A DNA stretch of 64,000 nucleotides from Gammaproteobacteria bacterium (GTDB lineage: Bacteria; Pseudomonadota; Gammaproteobacteria; UBA6429; Thiohalophilaceae), in contig JACQBC010000021.1 of the NCBI GenBank assembly GCA_016194635.1, positions 1 through 64,000 on the forward strand, in the 5' to 3' direction. Position 1 is the first letter of the stretch, and each line of letters starts with the position of its first letter. The notes below the pieces were generated by a model. That model ran no database searches, had not been told where the DNA came from, and worked only from the letters and a program-made list of their open reading frames with translations. Shown here one piece after another: positions 1 to 49,825 of this stretch. A program made the position numbers and the translations under genes.

Positions 1-141
1 CCGCGAGGCCGCCATCACTGATATGCAAGCCTACATGCGATACTATGACAGTGTTCGATTGCATTCCACGCCGGGGTATCAAACCCCGCTGGAATACGAA
101 AATAATCTTAACAATGTGTCCGGGTTGGCTTGACCACTACA
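1..141 (+). mobile_element. IS3-family transposase C-terminal remnant and right end
   Basis: An open frame runs from the window edge (first full codon at base 2) to a TGA at 131-133. It encodes the last ~43 residues of an IS3-type (DDE) transposase, with the typical YYDSVRLHSTPGYQTP tail. The coding end runs into TTGACCACTACA, which also follows the related remnant at 17256-17446 on the other strand, so this is probably the element's terminal sequence. The upstream part lies outside the window, so it cannot be said whether the copy is complete. The two remnants differ at several residues and are therefore diverged copies. Confidence 0.8.
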
Positions 142-44111: not shown

Positions 44112-45017
44112 CTAGTCACTATTTTTTTTGATGATATCAACGATCCGATCCAGGCTTTCATGGTTACGTTGTTCTGATCCGCGCTGATCGGTTGACATCA
44201 ATTTATCGTGGCGGTTATGCGCTTCTAAATCGATACGATCGCGGATTGTCGGGTTATCCTTGAGTATGGTTAGAAACGCCTCACGCTCGATACATACCAG
44301 TTGGGTTTGTGATAATGCCGACACCGTGGCGGCGCGCGGCGCACCGGTCAATAGCGACCACTCACCAAAATAATCGCCCGGGCGTAACAACGCCAGATTG
44401 ATATGTTTGTTATTAATATGATGACTTACCCGTAAATTACCGTACACCACCACATAAAACGCGTCCCCTGCTTCACCTTCTTGCACCAGAATACTGCCCG
44501 GCGGCGCTCCCACCAGTGCGGAATGTTCGATCAAGATCCGCATCGAATCATCCGGCAAGTAACGCAATAACGGCACCCCGCGTAACGCCGTCTCGGTAAC
44601 CCGGTGTTTAAAACGTTGGATCACCGCATCGCGTAGTTCGGTACGCGCGTCAATGATTTGGTTGAGCACTTCGCTGGGAATTTCCAACACCACCGAGGGA
44701 CGACTCACCGTCACATCGCAAACCCGCGGCATACCGAACAACGCCGCGATCTCACCAAAAATTTCGCCTTGTTTAAGGGTAGAGATATGGGTTTTACCGG
44801 CATCACTCCCGGCCGTTACCTCGACTTCCCCGACCACCAGGATGAACACCCGGTTATCACGTTGGAATTGCCGACATAGCTGTACCCCCGGCATGACGCT
44901 ACGTACGATACCACGGTCCAGGAGATACTGCTTTTCAGCGGTGGTAAGTAAATCACCAAATAGCTGATGCCGTTCAACGGCTTGCTCGATAGCTTCAAGA
45001 ACTTGTTGTTTTTGCAT
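44112..45017 (-). CDS. Protein with two cyclic-nucleotide-binding domains
   Basis: ATG 45017 is used; ATG 45056 is an alternative with a too-close GGTGG. The 301-residue protein has two cNMP-binding folds: residues ~15-130 (VFILVVGEVEV, GEIFGEIAALFGMPRVCDV) and ~150-270 (GDAFYVVVYGNLRV, GDYFGEWSLLTGAPRAATV). The second keeps the GE(x)SLLxxxPRAAT phosphate-binding cassette. There is no output domain, so it probably acts through a partner. It heads the run leading to PA2779/PA2778. Confidence 0.85.
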   Translation of the reverse strand: MQKQQVLEAIEQAVERHQLFGDLLTTAEKQYLLDRGIVRSVMPGVQLCRQFQRDNRVFILVVGEVEVTAGSDAGKTHISTLKQGEIFGEIAALFGMPRVCDVTVSRPSVVLEIPSEVLNQIIDARTELRDAVIQRFKHRVTETALRGVPLLRYLPDDSMRILIEHSALVGAPPGSILVQEGEAGDAFYVVVYGNLRVSHHINNKHINLALLRPGDYFGEWSLLTGAPRAATVSALSQTQLVCIEREAFLTILKDNPTIRDRIDLEAHNRHDKLMSTDQRGSEQRNHESLDRIVDIIKKNSD

Positions 45018-45220
45018 AGGCCGATGTTCCAAACTCTCGTGACAAGCGTAGAGCATTCCACCATAATCGCCAAGGAAACAGGAAGCCCTTCACAATTCTT
45101 GTCGAACTATTAGTGGTAAAGGAAGGTATTCGCCGCTTGAGTACCTATATCTTGTGAGGGGATATTCGGCCATTGCTAATCGAATCTGGCCATACATTGT
45201 TAATATTTGTGAATTAATCG

Positions 45221-46663
45221 ATGATTCTAGTCCCGATCGATAGGCCTATTAACTGGCACAACCCGCCGGTGATCACCGTGCTGTTGGTTTTGGTCAACTG
45301 CGCTTGTTTTTACTTTTGGCAAAACGATGACGACATGTACCGAGAACAGGCTATGACGTATTACCTGGACTCGGGTTTAGCCGAGATCGAGCTCGGTGCT
45401 TATTACCGTTATCTCAATGCGGGTGACGCCACGTTAAACGTGCCGCAGCACTTTATCCAAAACCCAAACTCCTATCGTCGCATGCGTAACGATGGAGTCT
45501 TCTTAGAAAAACTTCAGGCAGGAGAGATTATCACCCGTGCCGATCCGCTATACCCAACCTGGGACGCACAACGTAACCACTATGCCAGTTTGGATAATCA
45601 AATCGTAGCGCATCGCTTCGCTATTAACCCGGCCCATCCTGCGTTACTCACGCTGTTTACCAGCATGTTCCTGCACGCCGACACCCAACACTTGTTAGGC
45701 AATATGTTGATGTTATTGTTGATCGGTTATGTCGTGGAAACGCTGTTGGGGCATGCGGCTTATCTCGGCGGATATTTATTTGCCGGGGTGATGGGCAATG
45801 TTTTATATGTTGTGTTATCGCCGCACGTGGACATACCCGGTATCGGGGCCTCGGGGGCGATTTTCGGGGTACTCGGCATGTACGTGGTATTATTCTGGCT
45901 ACGCAAGATCCGTTTTTTTATTTTTTTATTCGTCTATTTCAATTACTTCAAGGCGCCGGCCATTATTATGCTGTTCCCGATGCTTGCCTGGCAGTTATAT
46001 ATTGAATTTGGCATGCACACCAACCTCAATGTCAAAGCCCATATCGGTGGTCTGCTTGGCGGGACCTTGGTTGCCCTGTTGGCAAAACGTTTCTTGACCA
46101 GCCTCGACAAGGCCTACCTCGACCATGACATTACCCAAGACCGTTACCAACAATCCCTCTTGGAAGGACAAAAACAATTAGCCGCCATGAATATCAAAGC
46201 CGCGCGTCGGATATTTTCCGAGCTGTTGCGTGACCACCCGCAGGATCTCGCGGTGAAACTGCAGTTATTTAATATTCTGAAACTGACCCCTGACAGTCCG
46301 GATTTTCATCAGCTCGCGCAGCAGTTGCTGAATCTGCACGGGGCGGATCGCCGCACGGTCAAGATCCTGCACGACGTCTTTGTCGAATACCTAGTGAAGG
46401 CAAAACCTACCCCGCGCTTATCCTCGGAACTCTCCATCACGCTTGCCTTACGTTTCGCCGCCAACGATTTTTTAACCGATGCGGAAAAATTAGTGACCCT
46501 GTTACTGCAAGAAAACCCTGGGTTTGCGCGTAACGCCGAGGGATTATCGGCCTTGGCCAAATATTATAACGGCAAGGACAGCAGCAAGGCCCAACATTAC
46601 CGTAACCTGCTGGTCCGAACCTATCCCGATAGTATTGAGGCCCGGCACCTGCAACGCGCCTGA
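45221..46663 (+). CDS. Rhomboid intramembrane serine protease with TPR tail
   Basis: The 480-residue protein has an extended periplasmic loop (~40-135) between its first helix and the core, then a six-helix rhomboid fold. Catalytic residues are visible: Ser211 in GIGASGAIFG and His274 in KAHIGGLLGG, with HADTQHLLGN earlier. A C-terminal cytoplasmic region (~295-480) looks like TPR repeats. It is convergent with a zinc-finger/TPR membrane protein gene, 12 bp apart. Confidence 0.9.
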   Translation: MILVPIDRPINWHNPPVITVLLVLVNCACFYFWQNDDDMYREQAMTYYLDSGLAEIELGAYYRYLNAGDATLNVPQHFIQNPNSYRRMRNDGVFLEKLQAGEIITRADPLYPTWDAQRNHYASLDNQIVAHRFAINPAHPALLTLFTSMFLHADTQHLLGNMLMLLLIGYVVETLLGHAAYLGGYLFAGVMGNVLYVVLSPHVDIPGIGASGAIFGVLGMYVVLFWLRKIRFFIFLFVYFNYFKAPAIIMLFPMLAWQLYIEFGMHTNLNVKAHIGGLLGGTLVALLAKRFLTSLDKAYLDHDITQDRYQQSLLEGQKQLAAMNIKAARRIFSELLRDHPQDLAVKLQLFNILKLTPDSPDFHQLAQQLLNLHGADRRTVKILHDVFVEYLVKAKPTPRLSSELSITLALRFAANDFLTDAEKLVTLLLQENPGFARNAEGLSALAKYYNGKDSSKAQHYRNLLVRTYPDSIEARHLQRA

Positions 46664-46675
46664 CACCGCGGAATA

Positions 46676-48115
46676 TTATTTTACCGCGAGTTTTTCCACC
46701 ACCCCCAGATAGTCCTGTACTTCGGGGACTAAGGCGTGGCTAGGATAATATTTAAGCACAAACTGTAATATCTGCCGTGCCTTGGCGTCGTCACTAAAGT
46801 GCTCACAGAGCATTTTAGCCGCCAGCAAATACGCCGCCGGTATGCCATCAAAACTCGGGAACTCGGTATGCAGATTGGCCAACAGCGTCACCGCCATCTT
46901 GGCCTGGCCATTGGCGCGCAACATCTGGGCAATTTCCACCCGTTCGTGGGCCCGTACCGGCCGGAACTGTTTATCAAAACCCACCGCATTTTGATACACC
47001 TTGGCCGCTAAACCAATTTTATTTTCGTGAAACAGATAGGAAATATATTCTTGGCCCTGTTTGGTATGCATCACCAGATCATTGTTTAACCGCGCCACTT
47101 TTAAAATTCTCTCCCGTGCCTCGACATTGCCCGGCATGTCAATGATCAGTTCGGCTAAACGCTGGGCGGCTTGTTCACTTTTACCCTCGGCGATCAAAAT
47201 CTCGGTGGCGCGTAATTCGGGACTGACCGTAAGTTCGGCATTAGGCTGGGCGTGGACCTCGGCCTCGATCTCCACGCTGTAACCCAGCTGTTCATGGTAT
47301 TGGTACAACACATAACCCATGAGATTAAACGTCACTAACCAAAAATATAGCCCAGTAAACGCTAACAGTATCGCCGCCACTTTGGGTGACAGCAGGGTTA
47401 ACAACAACGCTTGTGAGGTGCTTAATGCAGCGCTCAATAAATACAATAACCCCATCATAAATAAATACGGCAAACCGATGCGTTTAATTACCGTGAATAT
47501 AAGCAGCGGGTTAAAAGCACTGAAGAAACTATGTTCCATTGCCAATACCATCGTACTTGCAGGTAAGGTCAAAATGATCACCGTATAGGCCAGCCAACCC
47601 ATGGTATATCCGAACATATCAAACACCGTAAAAATAACCCCGCCAAAAGCGAACATTAGCGCAAGTTGCTTAAACGGCAGAACCATGTTGTCGGTAAACA
47701 GATCATTGGTATAGGGCCGTGGTGTTAAGTGCCCGTGGGCGGTGTCTTCCAACACGACATACGCGTATTTGGCAAACCCCACCAACAACACCAATAACAC
47801 CACCATAGAAAACAATCCCAACGTGCTATTGGCAAACAGCGCCACGATCCCCGTCCCGGCCCCAACCATGGCCCAGGTAATTAACAGCGGCGTAGGATAA
47901 AAGGGATAGAGAAAAAACCGTCCTAGGCGTTGCCAAAACGGAGTGACCAAATTACCACTGCCTAACGAGGTTAAATCGCGTTGACACACGGGACAGGACG
48001 GCAACTTGCCGGGTTTGGGAATGGCGATGCAGTCCGTACAGAAATTAATCTGGCAATGCTCACACGCCCAACGTGCTGGCATATGAACATGGTATTTACA
48101 AGTGATCGACGCCAT
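46676..48115 (-). CDS. Zinc-finger, polytopic membrane protein with TPR tail
   Basis: The 479-residue protein starts with a B-box-like zinc-binding module (~5-45, CKYH, CEHCQINFCTDC, CPVC), continues with about six helices (~65-280) and ends in a ~190-residue helical TPR-like region (~300-479). The combination resembles DUF4013-like proteins with zinc ribbons. No enzymatic motif. Its TPR tail resembles that of the convergent rhomboid gene, which hints at a shared pathway. Confidence 0.75.
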   Translation of the reverse strand: MASITCKYHVHMPARWACEHCQINFCTDCIAIPKPGKLPSCPVCQRDLTSLGSGNLVTPFWQRLGRFFLYPFYPTPLLITWAMVGAGTGIVALFANSTLGLFSMVVLLVLLVGFAKYAYVVLEDTAHGHLTPRPYTNDLFTDNMVLPFKQLALMFAFGGVIFTVFDMFGYTMGWLAYTVIILTLPASTMVLAMEHSFFSAFNPLLIFTVIKRIGLPYLFMMGLLYLLSAALSTSQALLLTLLSPKVAAILLAFTGLYFWLVTFNLMGYVLYQYHEQLGYSVEIEAEVHAQPNAELTVSPELRATEILIAEGKSEQAAQRLAELIIDMPGNVEARERILKVARLNNDLVMHTKQGQEYISYLFHENKIGLAAKVYQNAVGFDKQFRPVRAHERVEIAQMLRANGQAKMAVTLLANLHTEFPSFDGIPAAYLLAAKMLCEHFSDDAKARQILQFVLKYYPSHALVPEVQDYLGVVEKLAVK

Positions 48116-48178: not shown

Positions 48179-49084
48179 ATGACGCGGATTACACCCTTGC
48201 TATTACGAGCCCTGGTATATCTCCTGCTATGTGTGTCTTGCACCGGCTTGGCCACCGAGAGTTGGGCTAGAGGTGCTTTGATCACCTCTCAAGCCTTAAG
48301 TGAACAGCTGCACAACCCCGATCTGGTGTTGATCGATATGTCAGAGCAACCCCAGTACCAACGCTTTCATCTGCCAGGTGCCTTGGCCTTGCCGTATGAT
48401 GCCTTGGTCGTGCAACAAAACGGCACAAGTCAGCCACTGCCACAGCCCCAACTGATCCGGCTTTTGGGAAAACTCGGGATTCGTTCCAACGCGAATGTAA
48501 TTATTTATGACGACATAGGCGGACTGAATGCTGCACGTTTATATTGGGAACTTGAACAACTCGGACACCCACGCTGCGCCTTGCTCGACGGCGGCTTAGT
48601 CCAATGGATTTTGGAAAACCGACCCGTAACCAACCTGCTCCCAGCAGCCTTACCTCCTACCGTCTACAACGCGGCGAAGACCGGCCGATCGGCGCAGTCC
48701 GAGTTACAGGACATCGTAACCGCCACCGCCACGCACGCCATAGTGCTAGACGTACGTTCCGCGCAGGAATACCGTGGTGACCCCACCACCCCACGCAGTG
48801 GCCATGTGCCCGGTGCTAGATGGTGGGAATGGGACCACGCTGTGAATTACCCCGAGGGGTTTGTGCAACGCGACGAAACACAGTTAACAGCATCCCTGGC
48901 CGCGGTGGGTATCAAGGATAAACAACAACCTATCATTACCTATTGCCGCTCAAGCCACCGCGCCAGTCAAACTTATTTCACCTTGAAGCGTTTGGGCTTT
49001 GAAAACGTTAAACTCTACACCGGTTCAATGTTGGAATATGAGCAGCAAAAAAATTTGCCGTTAACCACCGGGATGAATCCATAG
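48179..49084 (+). CDS. Exported tandem-rhodanese sulfurtransferase
   Basis: The 301-residue protein has a signal peptide (ending SWA near residue 30), an inactive N-terminal rhodanese domain and a C-terminal one with the active cysteine in ITYCRSSHRASQ. This is the thiosulfate/3-mercaptopyruvate sulfurtransferase layout, in a periplasmic form. It fits a sulfur-metabolising lifestyle but does not prove one. The following 331 bp contain the candidate small RNA on the minus strand. Confidence 0.9.
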   Translation: MTRITPLLLRALVYLLLCVSCTGLATESWARGALITSQALSEQLHNPDLVLIDMSEQPQYQRFHLPGALALPYDALVVQQNGTSQPLPQPQLIRLLGKLGIRSNANVIIYDDIGGLNAARLYWELEQLGHPRCALLDGGLVQWILENRPVTNLLPAALPPTVYNAAKTGRSAQSELQDIVTATATHAIVLDVRSAQEYRGDPTTPRSGHVPGARWWEWDHAVNYPEGFVQRDETQLTASLAAVGIKDKQQPIITYCRSSHRASQTYFTLKRLGFENVKLYTGSMLEYEQQKNLPLTTGMNP

Positions 49085-49188
49085 CCCGCCTTCACGCCTA
49101 AGGCCAAAAAGTGGTAGCTGTGTTCACTCATTGCGGCACCTAGCCCGAGGCGGATCGCTACCCCGCTGGGCACAAGATTCCAGCGGAC

Positions 49189-49228
49189 AAAAAAAACCTT
49201 CCCAAAAACTCAGTGTTCAGCGGGAAGG
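49189..49228 (-). terminator. Rho-independent terminator
   Basis: On the minus strand a 7-bp stem CCTTCCC/GGGAAGG (loop ~18 nt) is followed directly by eight T. It terminates minus-strand transcripts, either the candidate small RNA or read-through from the gene ending at 49416. Confidence 0.8.
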
Positions 49229-49330
49229 CTCGGAAGTCTTGGCAGATTATTCTGTGTGGGTAAACACACCATAGCGCCCCAACCAGGGGACTGCAAGCCC
49301 GCCGCAGGACAGGGGTGGCTATGGGCGTAT
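49189..49330 (-). ncRNA. Candidate structured small RNA
   Basis: Three stems can be drawn in the minus-strand transcript: CCATAGC-cACCCC with GGGGc-GCTATGG (49269-49280/49312-49324), enclosing a CTGC/GCAG stem; GTGTG...CACAC (49254-49269); and the terminator stem at 49189-49228. A promoter-like pair (GTGTCA, 16-nt spacer, TATACG) lies immediately upstream, so transcription would start at the base of the first stem and run ~135 nt. The alternative is a structured 3' UTR of the sirohydrochlorin-chelatase-like gene, whose stop is at 49416. I do not recognise a known RNA family. Confidence 0.45.
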
Positions 49331-49415
49331 AGTGTGCCCGTATGTAGTGACACCCCGATGACAGAAAACCCTTGCAGTCAAGTAGTTAGCGTAATAACCC
49401 GAGGATGTTATGCGG

Positions 49416-49775
49416 TTATTTAGCCAAGCGTAACAGCGCATCGATCAAACCTTCCGCCAAACCCAGGTAGGGCGCCAGCCGCAACCTGATCGCCGGGTGG
49501 TCGGCCTGGGCCTTGGCCATCTCGGCCGGAATGTCCTTGGCCACGTGCCGTCCGGCCGACAAGAAATACGGCAGCAGCACCACTTCCTCCGCCCCCTGGG
49601 CGATGCACTGTGCAATACCTTCGGGAATCGAGGGTTCAGCCAACTCCAAGAAGGCGCAATGTACCTCGGCATAGTCTTGACCTGCGCGCTGGCGTAATTG
49701 CGCCGTGAGTCGCCGGACTTCCTGGTTGGAATCCTCACGCCGGCTGCCGTGGGCGATAATCAATAAGGCTTTCAT
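49416..49775 (-). CDS. CbiX/SirB-like sirohydrochlorin chelatase
   Basis: ATG 49775 is preferred over 49781 because AGGTGA ends 6 nt upstream. The 119-residue protein is a single-domain chelatase: LLIIAHGSRREDSN with the first His, VLLPYFLSAGRHVAKDIP with the second. This small form inserts Fe2+ or Co2+ into sirohydrochlorin for siroheme or cobalamin synthesis. No other tetrapyrrole gene is near. Confidence 0.9.
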   Translation of the reverse strand: MKALLIIAHGSRREDSNQEVRRLTAQLRQRAGQDYAEVHCAFLELAEPSIPEGIAQCIAQGAEEVVLLPYFLSAGRHVAKDIPAEMAKAQADHPAIRLRLAPYLGLAEGLIDALLRLAK

Positions 49776-49825
49776 TTTCATTCACCTGCACTATGCTTGC
49801 CAGACCAGGCCCCGCAGGATATCAC

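Follow-up and report, generated by a model that had tools for sequence, protein, structure and literature searches.

A predicted trans-acting small RNA of Thiohalophilus relatives with a terminator loop complementary to the leader of an H1-like gene

The question raised by this locus is whether a minus-strand intergenic segment of the window (the whole 64,000-nt stretch of DNA analysed, from the genome designated G000) encodes an independent small RNA, and which transcript such an RNA would control. An earlier note had proposed a small RNA gene at 49189-49330 with its own promoter and terminator. The fold behind this proposal is present: the minus strand of 49185-49340 folds with -61.1 kcal/mol (z -3.59; equalled by 1 of 200 shuffles), and the terminal CCUUCCC...GGGAAGG stem is followed by eight T (49228-49189). 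The distance of ~190 bp given for the stop of the upstream gene was also confirmed; counted from the end of the cbiX stop codon at 49416, the terminator stem begins after ~185 bp and the T run after 220 bp. No known family had been recognised, and the Rfam 15 search of the window likewise returned no match at or above the gathering threshold; at E <= 5, it gave only a chance-level ilvH match elsewhere, on the opposite strand. The hairpin, the promoter-like site, the conserved locus, and the covariation with a target mRNA make it a well-supported prediction that a separate small RNA gene lies here, with promoter and terminator of its own; its predicted start and length differ from those first proposed. 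Our main reading, to which we assign a probability of about 0.85, is that the locus encodes a dedicated trans-acting sRNA of ~73 nt, made from its own promoter, which would pair with the leader of an H1-like gene and block its translation. Table 1 lists the features.

Table 1. Features of the predicted small RNA and its surroundings in the window.
Feature	Position	Strand	Basis or remark
Predicted small RNA, ~73 nt	49189..49261	-	Start inferred from the promoter; end is the last T of the T run
Conserved sigma-70-like promoter TTGCAG (49296-49291), 17 bases, TATGGT (49273-49268)	49268..49296	-	Comparison of loci
Seed GCUGAACACUGAGUUU in the terminator loop; partner AAACUCAGUGUUCAGU of the H1-like leader (G000:C1, outside the window)	49206..49221	-	16 contiguous pairs and covariation
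Anti-Shine-Dalgarno segment CUUCCGAG; partner CUCGGAGG of the target leader	49229..49236	-	8 pairs
CUGCCA; predicted partner UGGCAG at the target start codon	49240..49245	-	Joint fold, 6 pairs, weakest of the three helices
Intrinsic terminator: 5' arm CCUUCCC (49228-49222), loop, 3' arm GGGAAGG (49203-49197), T8 (49196-49189)	49189..49228	-	
cbiX, upstream neighbour	49416..49781	-	Pfam CbiX, E 3.7e-31
Rhodanese-type sulfurtransferase, convergent downstream neighbour	48179..49084	+	
Promoter-like GTGTCA-16-TATACG of the earlier note	49326..49353	-	Present, not conserved, outside the preferred model

We submitted the intergenic region to BLASTn against 96 genomes, its own included. Ten relatives were found at E <= 0.0015, all of the same family and all matching the terminator hairpin region only; the other listed matches had E >= 0.014. 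In the alignment of these relatives, arms of the CCUUCCC/GGGAAGG type enclose a loop with the pattern GYUGRRYRCUGAGU. Good conservation is confined to this terminator hairpin and its long loop, and the 5' half of the RNA differs between most genera. Covariance models of the hairpin were built from four hairpins (R1) and then from 25 (R2). Within the family, R2 gave a match at E <= 0.05 in 30 of 40 genomes, and 28 were accepted, namely 26 at E <= 1.1e-4 plus G007 and G021, in which loop, arms, and promoter are visible. G010 (L051) was omitted from the building of R2 and counted as present, G005 was counted among the 28 despite its lost loop and omitted from the covariation counts, and a second weak match in G020 was left uncounted. 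The R2 matches in G014 (L093) and G023 (L057) and the second match of G029 (L058) resemble ordinary terminators and were not counted either; a match in G322 is a generic terminator. By the model, 28 of the 40 family genomes have one copy of a related RNA at this locus; two more were recognised by synteny and complementarity, and five of six genomes of a second family, described below, have it as well. R2 was also run on a class-wide sample of 369 genomes at E <= 0.001, under stricter filters with which the family member G007 was missed; the three genomes recovered all belong to this family. The family includes Thiohalophilus thiocyanatoxydans, placed by NCBI in the Thiohalomonadales, and its own order is represented here by these 40 genomes of one family only. 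Strain DSM 16326 of this species has both the RNA and the target, with a promoter-like TTGCAA-17-TAGGTT and a predicted H1-like mRNA start near AAACUCAG.

The gene order around the hairpin was compared across the 28 loci. Each of them has, starting no more than 430 bp downstream of where the hairpin begins, one or more of four conserved genes (AAA-type, sulfurtransferase, B-box-like, cNMP-binding), and the genes 5' of the RNA differ among relatives while the RNA stays. That the hairpin is the terminator of cbiX was rejected because the upstream genes change and the RNA persists.

The same loci share a promoter-like site. The pattern TTGNNN-16..18-TANNNT occurs 30-140 bases 5' of the hairpin in 23 of 28 loci, compared with 326 of 5965 same-size stretches elsewhere in these loci, and the stricter CTTG[CA]-17..19-CTANNNT in 19 of 28 loci, compared with 5 of the 5965 background stretches. 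In G000, the site is TTGCAG-17-TATGGT, an assignment that rests on comparison among relatives. It places the predicted start near 49261, and the RNA would therefore measure ~73 nt and leave the large first hairpin mostly 5' of it. A consensus promoter and terminator scan reported neither this site nor the terminator, the latter because its loop is longer than the limit of the scan. A sigma-54 promoter, prompted by the TTGCA box, was considered and rejected; by eye, no TGGCAC box lies at the right distance in the sequences inspected, and the -10 box follows 16-18 bases on.

The earlier note had placed the promoter at GTGTCA-16-TATACG (49353-49326), the start near 49324, and the length at ~135 nt, and it had proposed no function. 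The letters are there, and the longer segment does fold better than shuffles; however, the site is unlisted in the consensus scan, and nothing like it is visible in G001, a relative of the same genus. It starts 57 bases further upstream than TTGCAG-17-TATGGT, the shared promoter, which sits within that first hairpin. The comparison of stems among relatives bore out the terminator hairpin and its loop, whereas the first hairpin, and with it the upstream inverted repeat to which weight had been given, is not kept. A ~135-nt RNA acting through these stems is thus improbable in our judgement, and the shorter RNA from the conserved promoter is preferred; an additional, longer transcript besides the ~73-nt RNA is possible. 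The minus strand of 49262-49335, which corresponds to the first hairpin of the earlier note, forms a long imperfect inverted repeat over the conserved promoter. None was seen in G001, and it may be an operator or a chance occurrence. A small open reading frame within the RNA was dismissed by eye in this genome and G001 only, the reading frames of which differ.

The loop itself indicated where a partner might be found. In most relatives, the changes in the loop core are A/G or C/U, which fits continued G-U-tolerant pairing with one sequence, and we therefore searched for the complement of the loop. A CsrA-type GGA loop was discarded, GGA being absent from the loop in this genome and many relatives. 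The search of the 40 genomes for CTCAGTGTTCARC resulted in 12 matches in 11 genomes, and the reversed control gave none. Seven matches lie directly 5' of the Shine-Dalgarno sequence of the H1-like gene, four are RNA genes, and one (G022) is unrelated. The gene behind the seven matches encodes a short lysine-rich protein, for example MATKKKGRKKAAKKKVV.... A sequence-only leader model (R3) found the full-length leader in 29 of 40 genomes, including this one (G000:C1:39895-39971); having been trained on site-bearing leaders, it is biased to the consensus site and not to genome-by-genome matching. From its predicted start, the G000 leader reads UAAACUCAGUGUUCAGUUAACUCGGAGGCAAUACAAAUG, and the encoded protein has 40 residues. 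No matching family was found for the protein in Pfam and NCBIfam, and at this length the name 'histone H1-like' therefore rests on its composition; the protein is predicted to package DNA. A second lysine-rich gene (MAAKKKTARRKT...) was observed at L168 and L169 (G007:C102, G021:C466), with a similar promoter and a different leader that has no loop-complementary site.

The presence of RNA and leader site was then compared genome by genome. In genus g14, complementarity revealed the RNA in G025 and G035, in the expected place; G035 was compared with the leader of its genus mate G014, and its own H1-like leader was not found. G014 itself (L216) lacks the 3' half of the RNA locus and has an intact H1-like leader with the site. 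No RNA was recognised at the readable loci of G018 and G011, contigs end within 2 kb of the marker gene in G028, G033, G030, and G032, and the marker gene itself gave no strong match in G022, G023, and G027. The leader site core is altered in G018, G011, G022, G028, and G023, where no RNA was found and the locus is readable in the first two only. G003 and G031, which have the RNA, also have an altered leader site core. The leaders of G027 and G032 keep the site, and sequence of the RNA locus is lacking there.

A second gammaproteobacterial family (f36) provided a separate check. When R3 was run on the class sample, 2 of 369 genomes outside the own family matched, both from this family, with the site AAGUUCAAUGYUCAAY. 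The best matches of R2 in these two genomes, at a lax threshold, had E values of 0.005 and 0.009 and the loop GGUUGAGCAUUGAACUU. The complementarity between each RNA with this rewritten loop and the leader of its own genome extends over 17 contiguous positions in G074 and 19 in G216. Since the R2 matches were selected without regard to complementarity, the agreement of loop and leader was a check that could have failed. Both RNAs lie upstream of the same AAA-type gene, and the rewritten loop was found beside this gene in 5 of 6 genomes of the order of the second family.

For the covariation analysis, we used 14 pairs in 21 genomes from 14 genera, comprising 19 genomes of the own family (without G005) and two of the second. 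The results show that 93.7% of the cells were paired, compared with 86.4 +/- 0.9 in shuffles. Changes on both sides were found at 7 of 14 pairs, a number reached in 1 of 500 shuffles, and the double-changed cells numbered 21, against 5.7 +/- 2.1 in shuffles (0/500). The number of pair types was not significant (66/500 shuffles). Slid alignments were paired at 23-38%; this control retains the relatedness of the genomes, which the shuffles ignore. Within the own family alone, 92.3% of cells were paired over 13 pairs, with four pairs double-changed (18/500) and 12 double-changed cells against 3.5 +/- 1.9 (0/500). G003 and G016 stayed in the set despite gaps; MAFFT set the gap of G016 at the end of the core, which cost pairs there. 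G010 has three unpaired positions among the 13 core positions compared. Additionally, a search for AACTCAGTGNNCARY with two free bases gave 37 matches in 22 of the 40 genomes and 5 in the reversed control. Seventeen of these were in H1-like leaders, with TT, CT, or TC as the only free bases, six were RNA genes, and the other 14 never carried these letters.

The complementarity to an unlinked mRNA thus has evolutionary support, in the double changes at half of the pairs and the failure of the slid controls. These data also bear on the view that the hairpin merely terminates the upstream gene or a longer transcript, its match to the leader being coincidence or descent from a shared repeat. Such a view draws on terminators being common and on the terminator being the only well conserved part of the RNA; it is opposed by the upstream genes that vary while the RNA stays, the promoter-like site in between, the loop that covaries with an unlinked leader where slid controls fail, and the rewritten partners of the second family that still match. 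We give it hardly any credence.

The strength of the predicted pairing was evaluated in the 20 genomes with both parts as identified by R2 and R3. In G000, the loop forms 16 contiguous pairs with the leader and the anti-Shine-Dalgarno segment 8 pairs with the Shine-Dalgarno sequence (Table 1). Plain RNAduplex energy was unselective, the cognate leader being equalled or beaten by 55 of 8504 stretches of the window, and was too permissive for this purpose; net binding energy after unfolding of both partners was therefore used as the target test. By this measure, G000 reached -16.6 kcal/mol, which was attained by 0 of 1993 window stretches, and in all 20 genomes the cognate leader was better than every one of its 40 mononucleotide shuffles. 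The longest contiguous run between hairpin and leader ranged from 9 to 19. The Shine-Dalgarno sequence lies within the predicted duplex in every genome of the set and is paired at 5/5 positions in 18 of them and at 4/5 in two. In the RNAduplex comparison, some other partner frequently outscores the cognate one, and G020 and G024 pair more weakly with their own than with the mean over the targets of other genera. When partners were permuted among the 20 genomes, the cognate total was -854 compared with -758 +/- 18, and none of 20000 permutations was as low. The pairing of RNA and leader is, on these sequence comparisons, strongly supported as a prediction. In G005, G006, G017, and G020, the first codons of the target pair with a central, conserved part of the RNA (e.g. 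CAUUUUCUUUGUUG). The RNA of G005 (L098) is without the ACACUGAG loop and has a longest run of 9; its target keeps the site, and the predicted duplex rests on the Shine-Dalgarno sequence and the first codons.

Combining these data, we suggest the following mode of action. The RNA would be transcribed from its own sigma-70-like promoter and end at the intrinsic terminator after ~73 nt. The 5' leader of the unlinked H1-like mRNA is very short, and the terminator loop of the RNA, together with the segment before the stem, would pair with it. In this genome, the duplex would cover the predicted mRNA 5' end (AAACUCAGUGUUCAGU) and the Shine-Dalgarno sequence (CUCGGAGG), perhaps with the start codon as well. 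The terminator stem would have to open for the full duplex, a cost already included in the computed net gain. Because a duplex over the mRNA 5' end and the Shine-Dalgarno sequence should exclude the ribosome, the H1-like protein would be repressed. Among known sRNAs, a duplex over the Shine-Dalgarno sequence usually results in repression. As RNA and leader changed in step in the relatives, the RNA most likely sets the amount of the DNA-packaging protein that is made, and a nucleoid-compacting protein would likely be held down or timed in this way.

Two other outcomes of the pairing were considered. A duplex on the predicted mRNA 5' end might instead have a protective effect, and the H1-like mRNA would then be activated or stabilised; alternatively, this mRNA could act as a sponge that titrates the sRNA from other targets. 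The presence of the Shine-Dalgarno sequence inside the predicted duplex in 20 of 20 genomes opposes these outcomes, as does the absence of a second conserved target from the loop-complement searches, in which a single sequence pattern was searched. We consider both outcomes unlikely and retain the repression of the H1-like protein.

The best-known precedent for an sRNA acting on an H1-like protein is the developmental switch of Chlamydia. IhtA of Chlamydia is described as a trans-acting sRNA that represses the H1-like protein HctA, encoded by hctA (PMC4355289, PMC3469542). The two RNAs are alike in acting in trans and in where they pair, as predicted here and known there: around the translation start of an mRNA for a lysine-rich, H1-like protein. 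IhtA uses loop 1 of its three stem-loops and ~7 nt around the AUG, with the Shine-Dalgarno sequence unused (PMC4355289). In contrast, our RNA would use a terminator loop and an anti-Shine-Dalgarno segment, 16 + 8 positions from the predicted mRNA 5' end, so that the predicted duplex is centred on the leader 5' end and the Shine-Dalgarno sequence. It matches no Rfam family, and the difference from IhtA lies in the predicted mode of pairing.

RaiZ of Salmonella, whose target is hupA (HU-alpha), also acts on a histone-like protein and may be likened to our RNA in action. However, HU is not an H1-like protein, and our RNA lies between cbiX and the sulfurtransferase gene with its own promoter-like site. 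RepG of Helicobacter pylori is described to bind a 5' UTR through a seed in its terminator loop (PMC8295292), the arrangement predicted here. The C/U-rich loop of RepG reads a variable G-repeat in tlpB, whereas here a loop of mixed sequence, GYUGRRYRCUGAGU, covaries and pairs with ACUCAGUGYYCARC, and the duplex extends over the Shine-Dalgarno sequence. The best reading is that our RNA would function like IhtA and RaiZ and belong to neither, and we filed it under none of the three.

We found no account of this RNA, nor of an sRNA in its order, in the open-access literature, which does not prove their absence. On balance, the comparisons favour an undescribed sRNA family of at least two gammaproteobacterial families that would act as a brake on an H1-like protein, with the terminator itself as the antisense element, its stem unzipped and its loop and flank bound to the mRNA 5' end through the Shine-Dalgarno sequence. 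If this is true, it would be a further independently evolved case, beside IhtA and RaiZ, of sRNA control of a bacterial histone-like protein. It would tie an sRNA to an H1-like DNA-packaging protein and make it testable why relatives of Thiohalophilus need such a brake. Both sRNA and target were read from sequence alone, from the loop complement to the leader, the covariation over 14 genera, and the rewritten pair of the second family, and the system thus offers a clean test case for finding sRNA targets from evolution in mostly uncultured bacteria.

Three further genes were noted near the RNA in the window. One encodes a 314-aa protein with a cNMP-binding domain (44112-45056, minus strand; Pfam E 2.7e-39), and 27 of 28 loci have its counterpart downstream of the RNA, at a distance of no more than 7 kb. 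Another conserved protein, of 479 aa and with a Cys/His-rich start that resembles a B-box by eye (46676-48115, minus strand), gave no Pfam match above the cut-off, and it is adjoined by a rhomboid-family protein (45221-46663, plus strand).
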